From NCBI RefSeq assembly GCF_021278965.1, contig NZ_CP065589.1:439001-503000 (forward strand): a stretch of DNA of 64,000 nucleotides. Reading direction: 5' to 3'. This document shows positions 43,781-50,541 of the stretch, piece after piece. Position 1 is the stretch's first letter, and each line of letters starts with the position of its first letter. The stretch is from Chryseobacterium capnotolerans (GTDB lineage: Bacteria > Bacteroidota > Bacteroidia > Flavobacteriales > Weeksellaceae). The position numbers and the translations under genes were made by a program. Under the pieces are notes generated by a model that saw nothing but the letters and a program-made list of their open reading frames with translations, had not been told where the DNA came from and did not search any database.

Positions 43781-46231
43781 TTAAACTGAACGGATGATGT
43801 CTGCGAAAATCCCACTGGCTGTTACTTCTGCTCCTGCACCAGCTCCTTTGATGACCAATGGCTGCTCAGAATATCTTAAGGTTTTAAAAATGACAATATT
43901 ATCTTTTCCATATAAGTGAAATAAATCACTTCCCGGAGCCACATGCTGTAAGCCTACTTTAGCTTTTCCATCTTTAAATTCAGCAGTATATTTCAGGATT
44001 TTTCCTTCTTTTTGAGCATTGTCAAATAAAGATTTAAAGTGATCTTCATATTCTGTAAGCTTTTCATAGAAATGGTCTACACTACCTTCCATACAGGCTT
44101 CCGGTAAGAAACCTATGTTTTCAATCTCTTCAAACTGAAGCGGATACCCGGCTTCTCTGGCGAGGATTAATATTTTTCTGGCTACATCTGTCCCGGAAAG
44201 GTCAAGTCTTGGATCGGGCTCTGTATATCCTTCTTTCTGTGCCTGGGCTACCACTTCGGAAAAGGTTTTGCTTCCGTTATAAGTATTGAATACAAAGTTT
44301 AATGTTCCGCTGAGCACTGCTTCAATGGATGTTATTTGATCACCACTTTTGATGAGGTCATTAATAGTCCCTATTACCGGAAGTCCGGCTCCTACATTGG
44401 TTTCAAAGTGAAAGCAGCAGTTGTGATTTCTTGCAGTATTTTTCAATATTGTATATTTTTCAAAATCTGAAGAAGCAGCAATTTTATTACAGGCAACAAT
44501 ATTGATGCTTCTTTTCAACAGACTTTCATAGACTTCAGGAACTTCTGAGCTTGCTGTAATATCTACAAAAACTGAATTTCTTAGATTACGGGATATGATT
44601 TCTTCGGCAAATCTTTGTGCTGAGGCTTCAATTCCTGACTCATTCCAGTTGATATATTCTTCTTCGGAAATTCCTTTCTCAGCAAAGATTATTTTGCGGC
44701 TGTTGGAAAGACCTGCAATTCTTAAATTGATGAAATGGTTTTCCTTCAGATATTGATTCTGATTAAAGATTTGCTGGATAAGTTTGGTCCCTACATTTCC
44801 TGTTCCGCAGAGGTAAAGGTGAATCTGCTTTATTTCAGACTCAAAGAACTCTTCATGCAGAACATTGACTGCTTTTTTAGCATCTTTTTCAGCAATTACA
44901 ACACTGATGTTTCTCTCTGAGGAGCCTTGTGCAATGGTTCTGATATTGATTCCGTTATTCCCCAGACATCCAAACATTTTGGCGCTCACACCACTTCTGC
45001 TTTTCATGTTTTCTCCTACCAATGCTACAATGGATAGCCCTGTTTCAATATTGACCGGAGCTACTCTTTTTAAATTAATATCATCTGCAAAGGATACATT
45101 GATTGCATTTTCAGCTGCTGACATATCTTTTTCATGAATTGCTATGGTGATGGAATGCTCGGAAGAACCCTGGGTAATAAGAATAACATTTATTTTTTCC
45201 TGACTCAGGCATTGGAAAAGTTTTGCAGAAATACCGGGAATTCCTACCATTCCGCTGCCTTCCAGAGTAAGCAGAGCAATATTATCCATATTTGAAACTC
45301 CTACTGCAATCTGGTGTTTTTCGTTTTCGGAAGTATTCAGATTATGGGAAACCAATGTTCCTTTTGCCTTTGGATCAAAAGTATTTTTAATTTTAAGGTT
45401 AATATTTTTGACCATCACGGGTTGAATTGATGGTGGATAAATAACTTTTGCCCCAAAATGAGAAAGTTCCATCGCTTCATGATAGGAAATTTCAGCAATA
45501 GGTTTAGCGTGTGAGGCCAGGCGGGGATCTGCAGTCATCATTCCGCTTACATCGGTCCATATCTGAAGTTCTTCAGCGTGAATGGCAGCAGCAATAATAG
45601 CAGCAGTGTAATCTGAGCCGCCACGTCCTAATGTTGTAGTATGATCTTTTTCGTCACTAGCTATGAAGCCAGGGCCTATCAGAATACGGTTTTGATGATT
45701 GTTGAAATAATTTTTAATATTGTTTTCAGTACTATTGAAATTCACTTTTGCATGGGTGAAATTGCTGTCAGTTTTGATGAGTTCCGAAACATTCATCCAT
45801 AAACAATCTAATTCTTCATGCTGAAGTCTTGCTGCAATAATGTTGGAAGACAGAAACTCACCATAAGAGGCAATTTTATCTTTGATTCTAGGAGTAAGCT
45901 CACCAAGAACAAAAACTCCGTTGTAGAGATCCTCCAGATCATTGAAATGTTTTTTTACAAAACTTAGCAAAGCACTTTGCTCTAAAACAGGAATAAGTTC
46001 TTTGACGAGATTAAGATGTTTTTCTTCTGCATTTTTAAGCAGCAGGAGGTAATCTTCATTTTTAACAGAAGCATATTCTGCGGCATTAATAAGAAGATCA
46101 GTTACACCGTGAAGTGCTGATACAATTACTACAATATTGTCTTTTGAAGATTCTTGTTTTATAATGTTTTCTACAAGCAATATATTCTGGGCATTGGCGA
46201 CTGATGTTCCGCCGAATTTTAAGATTTTCAT
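43781..46231 (-). CDS. thrA: Bifunctional aspartokinase / homoserine dehydrogenase
   Basis: An 816-residue fusion that phosphorylates aspartate and later reduces aspartate semialdehyde to homoserine. The N-terminal kinase (1-~300) opens MKILKFGGTSVANAQ and has TTLGRGGSDYTAAIIAAAIH. Tandem ACT domains (about 320-450) carry MVGIPGISAKLFQCLSQEKI and GCLGNNGINIRTIAQGSSER, expected to bind threonine as feedback inhibitor. The C-terminal dehydrogenase (about 460-816) has LYLCGTGNVGTKLIQQIF and GTDVARKILILAREAGYPLQ. It is the first structural gene after the leader and attenuator. Confidence 0.95.
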   Translation of the reverse strand: MKILKFGGTSVANAQNILLVENIIKQESSKDNIVVIVSALHGVTDLLINAAEYASVKNEDYLLLLKNAEEKHLNLVKELIPVLEQSALLSFVKKHFNDLEDLYNGVFVLGELTPRIKDKIASYGEFLSSNIIAARLQHEELDCLWMNVSELIKTDSNFTHAKVNFNSTENNIKNYFNNHQNRILIGPGFIASDEKDHTTTLGRGGSDYTAAIIAAAIHAEELQIWTDVSGMMTADPRLASHAKPIAEISYHEAMELSHFGAKVIYPPSIQPVMVKNINLKIKNTFDPKAKGTLVSHNLNTSENEKHQIAVGVSNMDNIALLTLEGSGMVGIPGISAKLFQCLSQEKINVILITQGSSEHSITIAIHEKDMSAAENAINVSFADDINLKRVAPVNIETGLSIVALVGENMKSRSGVSAKMFGCLGNNGINIRTIAQGSSERNISVVIAEKDAKKAVNVLHEEFFESEIKQIHLYLCGTGNVGTKLIQQIFNQNQYLKENHFINLRIAGLSNSRKIIFAEKGISEEEYINWNESGIEASAQRFAEEIISRNLRNSVFVDITASSEVPEVYESLLKRSINIVACNKIAASSDFEKYTILKNTARNHNCCFHFETNVGAGLPVIGTINDLIKSGDQITSIEAVLSGTLNFVFNTYNGSKTFSEVVAQAQKEGYTEPDPRLDLSGTDVARKILILAREAGYPLQFEEIENIGFLPEACMEGSVDHFYEKLTEYEDHFKSLFDNAQKEGKILKYTAEFKDGKAKVGLQHVAPGSDLFHLYGKDNIVIFKTLRYSEQPLVIKGAGAGAEVTASGIFADIIRSV

Positions 46232-46265
46232 CTATTATTTATTTGAGATTAGAAAAAGTAAAAGG

Positions 46266-46289
46266 TTTACTCTTTGAAAAAAGAGTAAA
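46266..46289 (-). promoter_or_regulatory. thr attenuator hairpin
   Basis: A 10-bp stem, TTTACTCTTT / AAAGAGTAAA, with a 4-base loop on the minus strand is followed by CCTTTTACTTTTT. It lies between the leader peptide stop and thrA (35 bases before the ATG), where a conditional terminator would act. A second, smaller hairpin (ACCCC / GGGGT, 46318-46332) overlaps the leader stop and could be part of the alternative pairing. Confidence 0.7.
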
Positions 46290-46323
46290 GGGTACCGGAA
46301 ATAATATGTGAAAATTTACCCCT

Positions 46324-46425
46324 TTATGGGGTCGTTGTTGTAGTTGTGAATGTAGAAACAGAAGATACTCCTGAAATAGGTGACTTCAGGATAGAAATAT
46401 CAGATATGTTTCTTAAAAAATTCAT
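46324..46425 (-). CDS. thrL: Threonine-rich thr operon leader peptide
   Basis: A 33-codon ORF, ATG 46425 to TAA 46324. It opens MNFLRNISDISILKS and ends STFTTTTTTP: six consecutive Thr codons (ACA, ACT, ACA, ACA, ACG, ACC) plus one nearby, with several Ile codons earlier. This is the architecture of a ribosome-mediated attenuator sensing threonyl- (and isoleucyl-) tRNA, as in enterobacterial thrL, although the sequence itself is unrelated. It lies just downstream of a consensus promoter and ahead of a hairpin and thrA. Confidence 0.8.
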   Translation of the reverse strand: MNFLRNISDISILKSPISGVSSVSTFTTTTTTP

Positions 46426-46470
46426 TATTATCTCACAAATGTACAAATTATTCCGGGATGACAAATTTTA
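46382..46470. repeat. Direct repeat copy 1 (functional thr leader/promoter)
   Basis: An 89-base segment aligns without gaps to 49185-49273 at about 73% identity (24 mismatches counted by eye). Copy 1 contains the start of the thr leader and its promoter. Both copies are followed by a six-Cys peptide sequence, and ilvBN lies between them. Confidence 0.75.
46436..46464 (-). promoter_or_regulatory. Promoter of the thr operon
   Basis: On the minus strand TTG (46462-46464), 18 bases, then TACATTTG (46436-46443) form a consensus Bacteroidetes promoter. The -7 box ends 10 bases before the leader peptide ATG. Confidence 0.75.
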
Positions 46471-46498
46471 TTAGAAAATAAATGTATTTCTTTTTTTA

Positions 46499-46627
46499 GG
46501 TTATGAGTATTGTCCAGTTGGGCCTTATGGTTTCGGTCAGCTAAGATCATGCGAAGATTACTATCTTTTACCAGTATGTTGTAAAGCAATGGTTTTGGCG
46601 GATGTTGCATGCTCTACAGACCGGTAT
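46499..46627 (+). pseudogene. Decayed six-Cys peptide gene fragment
   Basis: The frame encodes about 43 residues that match the core of the peptide at 49367 (CPVGPYG, RSC, then LP-x-CC-K, ending DRY). The bacteriocin-like N-terminus and any in-frame start are missing, and the frame runs on past the normal stop position. It is a truncated relic that, with the repeat at 46382-46470, mirrors the order seen at 49185-49561. Confidence 0.8.
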
Positions 46628-46802
46628 TGTGTTAAAATAATAAATATATATGTTCAGAAAAAAACGCAAAATTTTCACTGTTTCTTTTCTTAATATAATT
46701 TGTTTGAAAATAATAAATAGTTAACAATAAATGTTTATTTTTATTACTTATTGTATTGTTTATTGATTAGGTTTTTGGTTTTTATAAAAATAACATCATA
46801 TT

Positions 46803-46833
46803 TTGGTGAATTAAATTGTTTTTTATAGCTTTA
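46803..46833 (+). promoter_or_regulatory. Possible promoter of the ilvBN leader
   Basis: TTG at 46803-46805 and TAGCTTTA at 46826-46833 are spaced by 20 bases. The -7 box differs from TAnnTTTG in the last base. It lies 20 bases before a short Ile/Leu-rich ORF. Confidence 0.4.
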
Positions 46834-46853
46834 CAACACCAAATAAACAAATT

Positions 46854-46907
46854 ATGATAAATTCCCTCATCTCTCAAATTCTTTTTAGAATATATTATAG
46901 ACATTGA
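46854..46907 (+). CDS. Possible ilv leader peptide
   Basis: A 17-codon ORF reading MINSLISQILFRIYYRH. Four Ile and two Leu in 17 residues, and placement between a promoter-like sequence and ilvB, fit an attenuator leader for branched-chain amino acids. There is no run of control codons and no convincing terminator hairpin, so the call is weak. Confidence 0.3.
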   Translation: MINSLISQILFRIYYRH

Positions 46908-47171
46908 ATAATATATTCTTCTGCTTATACTGATTTAGATCGTATATATTCTTGTAAAGATCCCAAATTCTTTCAGATAAGGTATTCTCCTTTCAGGAAG
47001 AAAGAGCAGTTATTAATTCTTTACTATTATTGGTTCATTCTATGAAATAGATCCAAGGATTAATGGTTGGCAAACATGGCCGTTACGGCTGTAATATAGC
47101 TATATTTATTTGTATGTTAATATTATCTGTTATCAAAAATTATATAACGGATCATCTTAGTATAAAACACT

Positions 47172-48896
47172 ATGAAGAATTTAAATCTATCCACAGAAAC
47201 AGAAATTAGTGGAAGCCGAATGATACTGGACGCGTTTCTTCAGGAAGGCGTGAAAACAGTTTTTGGTTATCCGGGAGGAGCAATTATCCCTATTTATGAT
47301 GCTCTTTATGATTATCAAGGAAAGCTCGAGCACGTTCTTGTGCGTCATGAGCAGGCAGCTGTACATGCCGCACAGGGTATGGCCAGAGCCTCAGGCGAAG
47401 TAGGAGTCGTACTGGCAACCAGTGGACCAGGAGCAACCAATCTTGTGACAGGGTTGGCAGATGCTTTATTGGATAATACTCCGCTGGTGTGTATTACGGG
47501 GCAGGTTTTTGAACATCTATTGGGAACCGATGCCTTCCAGGAAATTGATGTAATGAATATCACAAGCTCTGTCACCAAATGGAATTATCAGGTTGCAGAT
47601 GCTAATGAGCTTCCCGAAGTTTTGGCCAAAGCATTTTATATTGCAAGATCAGGACGCCCGGGACCGGTTTTGATAGATGTGACCAAAAATGCACAATTGC
47701 AACATGCCATTTATAAAGGGTACTCTCCTTGCCATAATTTAAGAAGCTACAAACCTGAACCTGTTCCCCATATAGAAAACATAGAAAAGGCAGCAATACT
47801 TATCAACAACGCGGAGAAACCTTTTATTATTGTAGGTCAGGGTGTTTTGCTGGGAAAAGCGGAACATGAATTTTTACAGTTTGCAGAAAAATCTGGAATC
47901 CCCGTCGCCTGGACCGTTCTAGGGATAGGTGCCATTCCTAGGGATCATCCTCAGGCTGTAGGAATGGTAGGCATGCATGGAAATTATGGACCTAATATTC
48001 TTACCAATGAATGTGACGTCCTGATTGCTATAGGAATGCGTTTTGATGACCGGGTAACCGGAAAATTGGATCAATATGCAAAGCAAGCCAAAATCATTCA
48101 TATGGATATTGATCAGGCCGAAATCAATAAGAATGTGAAAGCAGATGTTCCGGTTCTGGGTAATTGTAAACAAACCTTGCCGCTTCTTACAACATTGATT
48201 CAGAAGAAAGAGTATCCACAATGGTATGAAAGATTTAATAGCTGCTATAAAATTGAAAATATGAATCTGATCCATCATGAATTATATCCTGAAGAGGGAG
48301 AAATTACCATGGGTGAAGTTATTCGTAGCCTTAACGAAATAACAGCGGGCGAGGCTATCATTGTAACGGATGTTGGGCAGCATCAGATGATAACCTGTAG
48401 GTATTACCGGTTTAAATACTCACGAACCAATATCACCAGCGGAGGATTGGGAACAATGGGATTTTGTCTTCCGGCTGCTATAGGAGCCTCTTATGTGGAA
48501 AAGAACCGGCCTGTCATTGCTGTTATGGGAGATGGAGGAGCGCAGATGAATATACAGGAATTGGGCACTATTATGCAATACCATTCTAATGTTAAAATTT
48601 TAATTCTTAATAATTGTTACCTGGGAATGGTAAGGCAATGGCAGGAATTATTTCATGAAGAAAGATATTCGTCAGTAGATATTCAGAGTCCTGATTTTGT
48701 ACAGGTAGCAAAAGGATATGGTATTGCTGGGACCAGGGTTTCCCAAAGAGAAAAACTGAAAACAGCCCTCTACGAAATGCTCGATCATAAAGGCGCTTTC
48801 CTTCTTGAGGTAATGACCGGAAAGGTACACAATGTATTTCCAATGATCCCACAAGGGAAAAGTGTTTCAGAAATTGTATTGAATAATAATTTTTAA
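47172..48896 (+). CDS. ilvB: Acetolactate synthase large subunit
   Basis: A 574-residue TPP enzyme condensing pyruvate (or pyruvate and 2-ketobutyrate) in Val/Leu/Ile synthesis. The N-terminal TPP-pyrimidine domain has VRHEQAAVHAAQGMARASGE with the catalytic Glu. The central FAD-type domain (about 200-340) follows. The C-terminal TPP-pyrophosphate domain has VMGDGGAQMNIQELGTIMQY through ILILNN, the Mg/TPP motif. It precedes ilvN by 8 bases. Other ilv/leu genes are absent from the window, so this could be a second isozyme. Confidence 0.95.
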   Translation: MKNLNLSTETEISGSRMILDAFLQEGVKTVFGYPGGAIIPIYDALYDYQGKLEHVLVRHEQAAVHAAQGMARASGEVGVVLATSGPGATNLVTGLADALLDNTPLVCITGQVFEHLLGTDAFQEIDVMNITSSVTKWNYQVADANELPEVLAKAFYIARSGRPGPVLIDVTKNAQLQHAIYKGYSPCHNLRSYKPEPVPHIENIEKAAILINNAEKPFIIVGQGVLLGKAEHEFLQFAEKSGIPVAWTVLGIGAIPRDHPQAVGMVGMHGNYGPNILTNECDVLIAIGMRFDDRVTGKLDQYAKQAKIIHMDIDQAEINKNVKADVPVLGNCKQTLPLLTTLIQKKEYPQWYERFNSCYKIENMNLIHHELYPEEGEITMGEVIRSLNEITAGEAIIVTDVGQHQMITCRYYRFKYSRTNITSGGLGTMGFCLPAAIGASYVEKNRPVIAVMGDGGAQMNIQELGTIMQYHSNVKILILNNCYLGMVRQWQELFHEERYSSVDIQSPDFVQVAKGYGIAGTRVSQREKLKTALYEMLDHKGAFLLEVMTGKVHNVFPMIPQGKSVSEIVLNNNF

Positions 48897-48904
48897 AAAG
48901 AAAA

Positions 48905-49186
48905 ATGAGAACAGAACATAAAGAATATACCATTACGGCTTATACTGAAGATTATTTAGGATTAATAGGCCGGATGAATGCCATTTTTTCAAGAAGAAGG
49001 ATTTCTATGGTGACTTTTCATGTGGGTCCTAGTGAAATAGAAAAAGTGAAAAAATTTGTCATCATAATCAGGGAGACTGAAGAATCGGTTCAGAAAATTA
49101 CCAGGCAAATGGAGAAACAGGTGGATGTACTGGAAGTTCATTACCACAAGAATCCTTACTTGTCAGCGGTAGAACATGCCAGCTGA
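48905..49186 (+). CDS. ilvN: Acetolactate synthase small subunit (short, single ACT domain)
   Basis: A 93-residue regulatory subunit with one ACT domain (about 5-80: EYTITAYTEDYLGLIGRMNA, RRRISMVTFHVGPSE, then QVDVLEVHYHKNPYL). The length is like IlvM rather than the ~160-200 residues of full IlvN/IlvH, because the C-terminal half is missing. Its TGA stop (49184-49186) coincides with the first bases of direct repeat copy 2, so the short form may have been fixed by the rearrangement. It is coupled to ilvB by 8 bases. Confidence 0.88.
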   Translation: MRTEHKEYTITAYTEDYLGLIGRMNAIFSRRRISMVTFHVGPSEIEKVKKFVIIIRETEESVQKITRQMEKQVDVLEVHYHKNPYLSAVEHAS

Positions 49187-49228
49187 TTTCAAGGTAAAAA
49201 TATCAGATATATTTCTTGAAAAGTTCAT
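49163..49228 (-). pseudogene. thr leader peptide relic overlapping ilvN
   Basis: A minus-strand ORF of 21 residues opening MNFSRNISDI, then LKS, matching the true thr leader (MNFLRNISDI...LKS) before running into ilvN sequence. The threonine codons are absent. The equivalent -7 box reads CACATTTT, so the promoter also appears dead. Confidence 0.65.
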
Positions 49229-49273
49229 TGTAACGGAAAAAATGTGCAAGTTATTTTGAAATAGCAAACTTTT
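49185..49273. repeat. Direct repeat copy 2 (degraded thr leader/promoter)
   Basis: Aligns without gaps to 46382-46470 at about 73% identity. It lies directly after ilvN and ahead of the six-Cys peptide cluster. Confidence 0.75.
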
Positions 49274-49311
49274 AACATAATAAATTATTAAATCCTTTTT
49301 AAGAGAAATAT

Positions 49312-49342
49312 TTGGTGTAATTAATTAAAAATCTTACATTTA
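49312..49342 (+). promoter_or_regulatory. Promoter of the six-Cys peptide cluster
   Basis: TTG at 49312-49314, 20 bases, then TACATTTA at 49335-49342 (one base off TAnnTTTG). It lies 24 bases before the first peptide gene. Confidence 0.55.
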
Positions 49343-49366
49343 TCTAATTAACTATATGAAAATCCA

Positions 49367-49561
49367 ATGAAAAATTCAAAAAAAATCAAAAGAGAACATT
49401 TAAAATCAATCAATGGAGGCGGAATTGGGGATTGTTATGAAAATTGTCCTGTTGGGCCTTATGGGCCAAATGAACCAAGATCATGTGGGGACTTTTATGG
49501 GCTGCCTGAGTGCTGTAAAAAAAGAGTATTGGTAAGTATGGACTGTTTTGACCGTTATTAA
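49367..49561 (+). CDS. GG-leader six-Cys peptide 1 (bacteriocin-like)
   Basis: A 64-residue peptide. The N-terminus MKNSKKIKREHLKSINGGG is a double-glycine leader of the bacteriocin-like type found in Chryseobacterium. The core has six Cys: C-x3-C-P, then PYGPNEPRSC, LPECC and VSMDC, ending FDRY. One more Cys spacing variation than its relatives (adjacent CC) is seen. It is the first gene of the cluster and the intact counterpart of the relic at 46499. Expected to be exported and oxidised. Target or activity is unknown. Confidence 0.8.
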   Translation: MKNSKKIKREHLKSINGGGIGDCYENCPVGPYGPNEPRSCGDFYGLPECCKKRVLVSMDCFDRY

Positions 49562-49633
49562 TCTGTTTCAATAATATAAGAGCATTGTTTTTACGATGCT
49601 TTTTTTGATTGATCATCTTAAAATTAAAATAGT

Positions 49634-49804
49634 ATGAAAACAATTAAAAAATTATCAAGAGACCAAAAGAAAAGTATCAATGGTGGTGCTACGCAAATTC
49701 AAATTGAAGCATGCGGTAGTGAACAACTTGTTTGTTTTATGGGAGGAGGTAGATGGGGATGCTGGCTGAAGCCTGGCGGAAAATGCTATCCTCCAATGCT
49801 GTAA
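49634..49804 (+). CDS. GG-leader peptide 2, divergent core
   Basis: A 56-residue peptide with the family leader MKTIKKLSRDQKKSINGGA but an unrelated core. It has four Cys (EACGSE, LVCFMGGG, WGCWLKPGG, KCYPPML) and is rich in Gly and Trp. It was found by its leader and its position between peptides 1 and 3. The Cys pattern suggests two disulfides or a modified peptide. No function is known. Confidence 0.7.
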   Translation: MKTIKKLSRDQKKSINGGATQIQIEACGSEQLVCFMGGGRWGCWLKPGGKCYPPML

Positions 49805-49839
49805 TTGAATCAATTAAAATCATTCAAAATCTTTACAGT

Positions 49840-50037
49840 ATGAAAAAGTTATCCCGGCACCATCTTAAAAATATTAAAGGTGAGAATGCTTCTATTTGTA
49901 ACGGATGTCCAGCTCATATTACATATGGGCCAGGAGTAGAATATACTGGGACCTGTGAAAATTATTTTGCATTACCGGATTACTGCAGAGACAAAAATTG
50001 TGTTAGAGTCAGTAGATCCTGTTTTGGAAATAGTTAA
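49840..50037 (+). CDS. GG-leader six-Cys peptide 3
   Basis: A 65-residue peptide from ATG 49840; an in-frame GTG/ATG region from 49753 overlaps peptide 2 and is rejected. Leader MKKLSRHHLKNIKGEN has G-E in place of G-G. The core has C-x2-C-P, HITYGPGVEYTGTC, LPDYC, then NC-V-x-V-S-x2-C, so six Cys in the family spacing. It lies 35 bases after peptide 2 on the same strand. Confidence 0.78.
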   Translation: MKKLSRHHLKNIKGENASICNGCPAHITYGPGVEYTGTCENYFALPDYCRDKNCVRVSRSCFGNS

Positions 50038-50089
50038 CAGAAAGAATTATAATAGTAAGTAAAAACATTAATTAATAACAAATCTAAAC

Positions 50090-50299
50090 ATGAGAAAACT
50101 ATCAAGAACAAAACTGAAGGATATTAACGGCAAAGGTGGAGGATGTGGCTTCTGTCCCACTTCAGGAAACTATGGAGATGGTCCCGAATATACTAATAGC
50201 TGCATGGCCTTTTGGGGATTATCTCCTACTTGCAGAAACTGTGTGGATGTAAGTGCAGATTGCTATGGACCAGATTATTCTGATTACTTCGGGAACTAA
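50090..50299 (+). CDS. GG-leader six-Cys peptide 4
   Basis: A 69-residue peptide. Leader MRKLSRTKLKDINGKGG. The core has CGFCP, NYGDGPEYTNSC, LSPTC, then NC-VDVSADC and an acidic/aromatic tail ending SDYFGN. The six Cys match peptides 3 and 5. The intergenic gap of 52 bases has no terminator, consistent with one transcript. Confidence 0.78.
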   Translation: MRKLSRTKLKDINGKGGGCGFCPTSGNYGDGPEYTNSCMAFWGLSPTCRNCVDVSADCYGPDYSDYFGN

Positions 50300-50337
50300 A
50301 AAATACTTTTTAATACCATCAAAAAATTAAAACAACT

Positions 50338-50541
50338 ATGAAAAATTTAAAGAAATTAAACAGAAAAGAACTTGGAGGAGTAAATGGTGCCATAGGATCA
50401 AACTGTAGCAGATGTCCACAGCATACAACTTACGGAACTGGACCTAATGATGCTCCGTGCAGTGCTTATCAGGCTCTTCCTACTTATTGCAAAGCGTGTG
50501 TAATTGTAAGTATGGAATGTATGGATGGTGGAGTGTCTTAA
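50338..50541 (+). CDS. GG-leader six-Cys peptide 5
   Basis: A 67-residue peptide. Leader MKNLKKLNRKELGGVNGA. The core has CSRCP, TTYGTGPNDAPC, LPTYC, then AC-VIVSMEC. It is the last peptide of the cluster and is followed by a strong terminator at 50564. Confidence 0.78.
   Translation: MKNLKKLNRKELGGVNGAIGSNCSRCPQHTTYGTGPNDAPCSAYQALPTYCKACVIVSMECMDGGVS

Follow-up and report, generated by a model that had tools for sequence, protein, structure and literature searches.

How a second pair of acetolactate synthase genes, ilvBN, came to stand between two diverged copies of one short regulatory region is the question raised by a locus of Chryseobacterium capnotolerans. The locus lies in a stretch of 64,000 nucleotides (nt) of contig NZ_CP065589.1, referred to here as the window. 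At this locus the typical order in Chryseobacterium is thrA, thr leader, small peptide genes and nadA, with one divergent promoter region between the leader and the first peptide gene. In the window this leader/peptide junction occurs twice, with ilvBN between copy 1, next to thrA, and copy 2, next to the first intact six-Cys peptide gene (p1). An earlier note on this DNA attributed the arrangement to an old duplication or insertion. The results of this study point instead to a recombination mosaic between two Chryseobacterium lineages, a reading to which we assign a probability of about three in four.

The two junction copies and their distribution

The repeat between the two junction copies is real. 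In a fixed register, 68 of 92 positions match without gaps, in agreement with the gapless repeat of about 73% described before. The best ungapped 92-nt match between 46232-46700 and 49184-49640 was 66, against a mean of 45.6 (sd 1.5, maximum 52) in 1000 dinucleotide-shuffled pairs, none of which was as good as the observed repeat. A genome-wide search with 46340-46640, in which 40 of 70 candidates were scored, recovered the query, copy 2 (123 nt at 73%) and a 31-nt stretch of the intact peptide gene, and nothing else. Read on the minus strand, copy 1 comprises the beginning of the Thr-rich leader peptide of thrA and its promoter. In the alignment with relatives, about 131 nt are absent from copy 1 at 46499|46500, and the missing stretch holds the p1 promoter and start. 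The other features first read from the letters were also recovered: a peptide relic follows copy 1 and an intact gene follows copy 2, and copy 2 has lost the Thr codons, its leader being cut at about codon 15, as well as the thr -7 box.

Two overlapping samples were compared. The named set comprised 69 Chryseobacterium thrA loci, of which 66 reached nadA (L023, L049, and L072 end early at contig edges). The genus set comprised 173 genomes, 117 of which had thrA of this type, in pieces in G123, G128, and G164. Loci with the most similar thrA, among them L007, L008, L009, L037, L060, L061, G011, G069, G100, and G121, are referred to as the host clade; thrA of the window is of host-clade type, the nearest named loci being 91-92% identical over the best segment. 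The fetched flanks of thrA contained no match to ilvB or ilvN in any of the 69 named loci (66 readable to nadA). Similarly, a second junction copy was found in none of the 67 testable loci, each searched with its own junction (L023 and L049, with too little upstream sequence, were dropped), and the same search recovered copy 2 of the window as a positive control. Loci without ilvBN thus carry a single junction, as had been predicted. For 111 genomes there was a thrA match together with an ilvB match among the matches listed; the two genes lay on one contig in 43 of them and on different contigs, where adjacency is not visible either way, in 68. Among the 43, thrA and ilvB lay within 15 kb of each other only in the window genome (G000) and in G038, which the protein search ties to the name Chryseobacterium gallinarum, a count that rests on the ilvB matches among the matches listed.

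In G038 the order is thrA, thr leader, intact p1, an ilvB leader with a promoter segment termed here the B element, ilvB, a 93-aa ilvN, p2, and nadA, so the orthologous ilvBN lies between p1 and p2, the second small peptide gene. No second junction was found when this locus was searched with its own junction, and none was evident by eye in the 186 nt between ilvN and p2. The expectation that the repeat occurs wherever ilvBN is present therefore failed, and G038 is a case of the kind that the earlier note had named as a refutation. The earlier proposal as a whole stood in part: the empty site in all 69 named loci supports the addition of ilvBN to what appears to be an ancestrally empty thr-leader/peptide region, whereas the idea that one event made the repeat is not supported, given G038 and the mixed ancestry of the locus.

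Ancestry of the segments and their seams

The ancestry of each segment was assessed by ranking 78 junctions, which are not fully independent, as some of the G handles are named loci (G123/L061, G020/L060). The leader-coding part of copy 1 (46380-46425) was 100% identical to host-clade L061/G123. The relic ranked G038 first (76.5%), followed by L062 (69.9%), with L061 at 66%. The promoter of copy 2 (49229-49305) was 91% identical to the host clade and p1 (49430-49561) 97% identical to host-clade G121; moreover, 49184-49366 aligned in one piece to L061 with 88.6% identity, the query having begun at 49184. Further to the right, p2 and nadA of the window are of host-clade type, p2 being 91 and 89% identical in two host-clade loci. 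Mean identities for the leader-coding part were 0.96 between copy 1 and native junctions, 0.83 between copy 2 and native junctions and 0.82 between the two copies. For the thr promoter they were 0.87 for copy 2 and native junctions, 0.70 for copy 1 and native junctions and 0.63 for the two copies.

The trees of ilvBN contained at most 30 loci of 134 matching genomes as well as loci fetched on purpose, and 7 of 120 listed proteins were added to the IlvB tree; L083, in which ilvB is broken (G128), and the duplicate L078 were left out. A clade of the inserted IlvB with its own canonical copy and the host-clade housekeeping group was rejected (lnL 59 lower, p-AU 0.0001), which rules out the genome's own housekeeping ilvBN as the source of the insert. 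Grouping with G038 was not rejected (p 0.40). The inserted ilvN of the window was 94.6% identical at the amino acid level to that of the G038 insert vs. 87.1% to the housekeeping ilvN of G038. Segment by segment, these affinities suggest that the resident junction is most likely represented by copy 2 and p1, and that a gallinarum-like lineage was the source of the relic, the ilvB leader and ilvBN.

At the right seam, matches to other ilvBN, among the matches listed, end mostly at 49182-49192, with a few extending up to 49211. The end of ilvN and the host-type leader have 3-4 nt, TGA(T), in common at 49184-49187. A plausible course is that gallinarum-type DNA comprising the 3' portion of p1, the ilvB leader and ilvBN became fused to DNA of the window's lineage. 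The left joint would lie at or near the thr leader, which is host-type to about 46425 and apparently foreign from 46500, and the right joint would have formed by end-joining over the TGA(T) of the ilvN stop and the resident leader. As a consequence, the junction would have been doubled, and each copy would then have shed its redundant half. At the last step, either DNA could have been the resident and the other the incoming one, with the same product.

Such an entry resembles homology-facilitated illegitimate recombination, which is reported for Streptococcus pneumoniae, Acinetobacter baylyi, Pseudomonas stutzeri, and E. coli, with microhomology of 3 to 10 bp in most cases and with resident DNA generally deleted (PMC3240628). 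The locus is similar in that foreign DNA may have been joined near homology on one side and apparently at a microhomology of a few nt on the other. It differs in that the window seam is known only as an evolutionary trace. With regard to deletion, copy 1 is without about 131 nt, yet the resident junction is partly duplicated.

The fate of the two copies was compared in columns that are invariant in 12 host-clade junctions (32 leader-coding, 45 p1-side and 34 thr-promoter columns). Copy 1 breaks none of the 32 leader-coding columns vs. 18 of the 45 p1-side columns (Fisher p 1.4e-5), and its deletion lies on the p1 side. Of the 34 thr-promoter columns, 4 are broken in copy 1, 3 in copy 2, and 4 in G038. 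The losses in the two copies appear complementary: the thr leader and its promoter remain in copy 1, p1 and the p1 promoter in copy 2. If the thr promoter of copy 2 were active, it would transcribe ilvN and ilvB in antisense, and its loss would thus be expected. The outcome recalls duplication-degeneration-complementation, in which two copies of a divergent regulatory region lose complementary halves; different from that model, however, the copies in the window appear to come from two lineages and not from one local duplication.

Coordinates and supporting data of the features at the locus (positions are those of the window)
Feature	Position	Strand	Evidence or remark
thrA, bifunctional aspartokinase/homoserine dehydrogenase	43781..46231	-	NCBIfam NF006959 981.6 bits, cut-off 726
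thr leader peptide gene, copy 1, 33 aa, MNFLRNISDISILKSPISGVSSVSTFTTTTTTP	46324..46425	-	translation checked
Repeat copy 1	46378..46469		longest direct repeat of 45.8-50.4 kb: 92 nt, 74%, ungapped
Promoter part of copy 1, at or beside the apparent left seam	46426..46499		best by score L036, L023, L012, L009, 76-82%
thr promoter of copy 1: -7 TACATTTG (46436-46443), -33 TTTG (46462-46465)	46436..46465	-	coordinates checked
Relic of first six-Cys peptide gene, without start codon, leader and promoter	46500..46635	+	G038 ranks 1/78, 76.5% to its first peptide
B element, promoter/5'-leader segment	46779..46886	+	74-82% identity to region upstream of an unrelated 198-aa gene
12-bp hairpin in ilvB leader	46887..46919	+	repeat search; G038 hairpin at same place
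ilvB paralog, acetolactate synthase large subunit, apparently of foreign lineage	47172..48896	+	TIGR00118 706.5 bits, cut-off 538.35
ilvN paralog, 93 aa	48905..49186	+	94.6% aa to G038 inserted copy, 80.6% to own canonical
Apparent right seam, where the ilvN stop TGA(T) runs into host thr-leader sequence	49181..49187		identity to G038 insert ends after GCCAGCTGAT
Repeat copy 2, thr leader truncated	49181..49272		leader start codon on the minus strand at 49226-49228
Dead thr -7 box of copy 2, CACATTTT in place of TACATTTG	49239..49246	-	sequence comparison
p1 promoter-like pair, TTTG-N20-TACATTTA	49311..49342	+	checked; junction alignment
p1, intact six-Cys peptide, Chryseobacterium bacteriocin-like leader	49367..49561	+	NF047798 28.2 bits, cut-off 23.5
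p2-p5, further small peptides of resident cluster	49634..50541	+	NF047798: p2 27.4 and p5 28.0 bits pass, p3 20.5 fails, p4 no match

The proposed mosaic and its alternatives

Several observations weigh against the mosaic. Neither the host clade (73-76%; L061 73%) nor G038 (70%) is a good match for 46426-46499. Eight junctions, from the host clade and others including G038, match the 45 leader-coding nt of copy 2 to the same degree (86.7%). The left seam may accordingly lie anywhere within 46425-46500, a left junction by homology is conjectural, and the evidence for a host origin of copy 2 comes from its promoter and from p1. The 3-4-nt overlap at the right seam is of low specificity and weak by itself. 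From IlvB alone, the foreign copy is not placed next to G038 (node support 54/79); a protein of Chryseobacterium sp. PMSZPI (P0002) is nearer to the inserted IlvB (88%) than that of G038 is. In the column test, copy 2 breaks 4/32 leader-coding vs. 1/45 p1-side columns, which is not significant (Fisher p 0.15), so the evidence that its thr half was lost is the truncation of the leader together with the -7 box; the single junction of G038 also breaks 2/32 and 6/45 columns. The fold of the ilvB leader is unremarkable (z = -1.3). Moreover, the window has a net partial duplication, different from the deletion generally reported for homology-facilitated illegitimate recombination (PMC3240628).

These points have to be set against what the alternatives can explain. 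If one old duplication or insertion in this lineage had doubled the junction around ilvBN, with the copies diverging to 74% afterwards, the ungapped alignment of both copies and the single junction in relatives would be expected; such an origin is nonetheless improbable, given that G038 has the same ilvBN and no repeat, that the copies are no closer to each other by mean identity than either is to the host clade, and that the nearest relative of the relic is not that of p1. Lineage divergence combined with decay explains the 74% identity better than the age of a duplication would. Both layouts could also go back to one insertion through an ancestral double junction (leader-p1-ilvBN-leader-p1), with the right copy then lost in G038 and the left one decaying in the lineage of the window. 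We consider this history very improbable, since neither search of the G038 locus (with its own junction, and by eye in the 186 nt between ilvN and p2) found a second copy, and since the host-clade promoter and p1 of copy 2 (91 and 97%), together with the foreign relic and IlvB, would need a later replacement as well. That the arrangement is an assembly artefact or contamination can hardly be entertained: the window genome has an estimated contamination of 3.08%, but it is a single 5.36-Mb contig, the IlvB cluster at 90% identity (P0001) has 4 member sequences on 4 contigs, and the open reading frames are intact with low dN/dS.

A mosaic of two lineages remains the preferred reading, and it could have formed in more than one way. 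In a tentative two-step variant, gallinarum-type p1-ilvBN would first have replaced the resident p1 by homologous recombination, and host-clade leader-p1 DNA would then have come back in, recombining by homology on the p2-nadA side and being end-joined to the ilvN stop, i.e., with the opposite polarity. This would be the usual form of homology-facilitated illegitimate recombination, with homology at one end and loss of the resident spacer, and the host-clade type of p2 and nadA would fit it; against it, one extra event is required and no intermediate was found among the genomes searched.

The inserted ilvBN, its leader and the neighboring genes

The ilvBN genes of the window are a second copy, the housekeeping set being in an ilvD-ilvB-ilvN-ilvC cluster at G000:C1:3180161, whose ilvD and ilvC score above the NCBIfam cut-offs. 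The inserted ilvN scores below them (TIGR00119 36.1 vs. 56.9, NF008864 43.5 vs. 119). Truncation of ilvN by the repeat was suspected from these scores and from the ends of matches near 49184. However, the housekeeping ilvN is also 93 aa long and also below the cut-offs (40.8 and 48.1), so the 93-aa form is the local norm. Compared with G038, dN/dS is about 0.05 for IlvB and about 0.03 for IlvN, with synonymous sites near saturation. Thus, the intact IlvB and IlvN with their low dN/dS look selected for function and probably form a second, functional acetohydroxyacid synthase, with transcription from the B element and a leader of its own. Acetohydroxyacid synthase acts on 2-ketobutyrate made from threonine, so the position of ilvBN beside thrABC may be useful or accidental. 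Similar to the acetohydroxyacid synthase isozymes of enterobacteria, a second pair of large and small subunits would be under its own leader; different from them, the pair in the window appears to be a foreign copy beside thrA, and its leader is related to that of a 198-aa gene. A literature search combining Chryseobacterium, acetolactate synthase, horizontal gene transfer, and ilvB found nothing.

In G038, the inserted and housekeeping ilvB (L107:8707-10431 and L147:7388-9112) were 93-100% identical in 100-nt windows over the equivalent of 47232-48923, and identical over about 47832-48923 (about 1.1 kb). The two copies diverge at the edges, with identities of 94, 82, and 61% towards the ilvN end and 69% at the ilvB start. 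Near-identity of ilvB between differing ilvN ends and flanks is the pattern of gene conversion, which probably took place between the two ilvB copies inside the G038 genome.

The B element was found upstream of the 198-aa gene in 28/28 loci examined (23 distinct genomes), including G038 and the window genome itself (G000:C1:1089202-1089293); L140-L146, with weak matches, were left out of this count. Over its full length, the ilvB leader (46660-46959) was common to G038 only in the genus set (79%). Given that the B element is common to the leaders of the 198-aa gene, the ilvBN promoter seems to have been taken from elsewhere before the transfer. The hairpin in the ilvB leader of G038 has an apparent compensatory exchange of A-U to G-C, judged by eye. 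A short open reading frame, MINSLISQILFRIYYRH, at 46854-46907 of the ilvB leader ends inside the hairpin, and by eye a similar one, MINSLIPQTPFRMYYKY, occurs in G038; it is possibly a leader peptide. The promoter/leader of the 198-aa gene is itself conserved (L148:2202-2293; L108:9514-9605), and in L108 the gene adjoins an EmrB-type MFS gene (TIGR00711) and an EmrA-like gene. A hairpin of CCTTTTCAAAAGG or CCTCTTCAGGAGG was present in 7/14 aligned leaders of the 198-aa gene type. The 198-aa protein had no match in Pfam, NCBIfam or PDB.

A leader open reading frame of 15-60 aa with at least 5 Thr, at most 450 nt upstream of thrA, was present in 67/69 named loci, the exceptions being L047 and L049, the latter with no more than 180 bases of upstream sequence. 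The fold of the thr leader is stable (z = -4.3). A short Thr-rich leader peptide, a hairpin after the Thr codons and a place upstream of thrABC are similar to leader-peptide attenuation of the thr operon type and may indicate such control here. No Rfam family reached the cut-off in the thr leader region (46233-46430), and the search of 46232-47171 for known RNA families gave three matches up to E = 1, all far below the gathering score. A TAnnTTTG box was found at the place of the thr promoter in 77/78 junctions, the exception again being L049; under a strict spacing rule, TTTG at the -33 place was found in only 31/78. A literature search for threonine or amino-acid leaders in Bacteroidetes or Flavobacteria gave no match besides one conference abstract book. 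In two genomes close to the host clade (G123:C177:434965-437411 and G164:C1:786229-788675), thrA itself is split by a stop into two pieces, perhaps from sequencing errors.

The small-peptide cluster p1-p5 extends over 49367-50541, and four of its peptides have six Cys residues and p2 has four. No Pfam match was found for p1. The number of matches to small peptides between thrA and nadA differs among relatives.

A second acetolactate synthase at the thrA site was found in only two of the examined genomes. A wider proposal, which is speculative and rather unlikely in its entirety, would be that ilvBN, having taken its promoter and leader from the 198-aa gene, constitutes a transferable metabolic cassette that inserts beside thrABC, which would provide a second enzyme of the threonine-to-isoleucine route outside the normal ilv control, would have split the junction of the receiving lineage into two complementary half-functional copies and, in C. 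gallinarum, would have had its ilvB kept similar to the housekeeping ilvB by gene conversion. The locus also points to a thr leader that is widespread in Chryseobacterium. If the mosaic reading is correct, a flanking direct repeat can look like the remnant of an old duplication and yet mark where alleles of two different lineages met, and the locus would be a natural example of a doubled divergent regulatory region with one direction retained in each copy.

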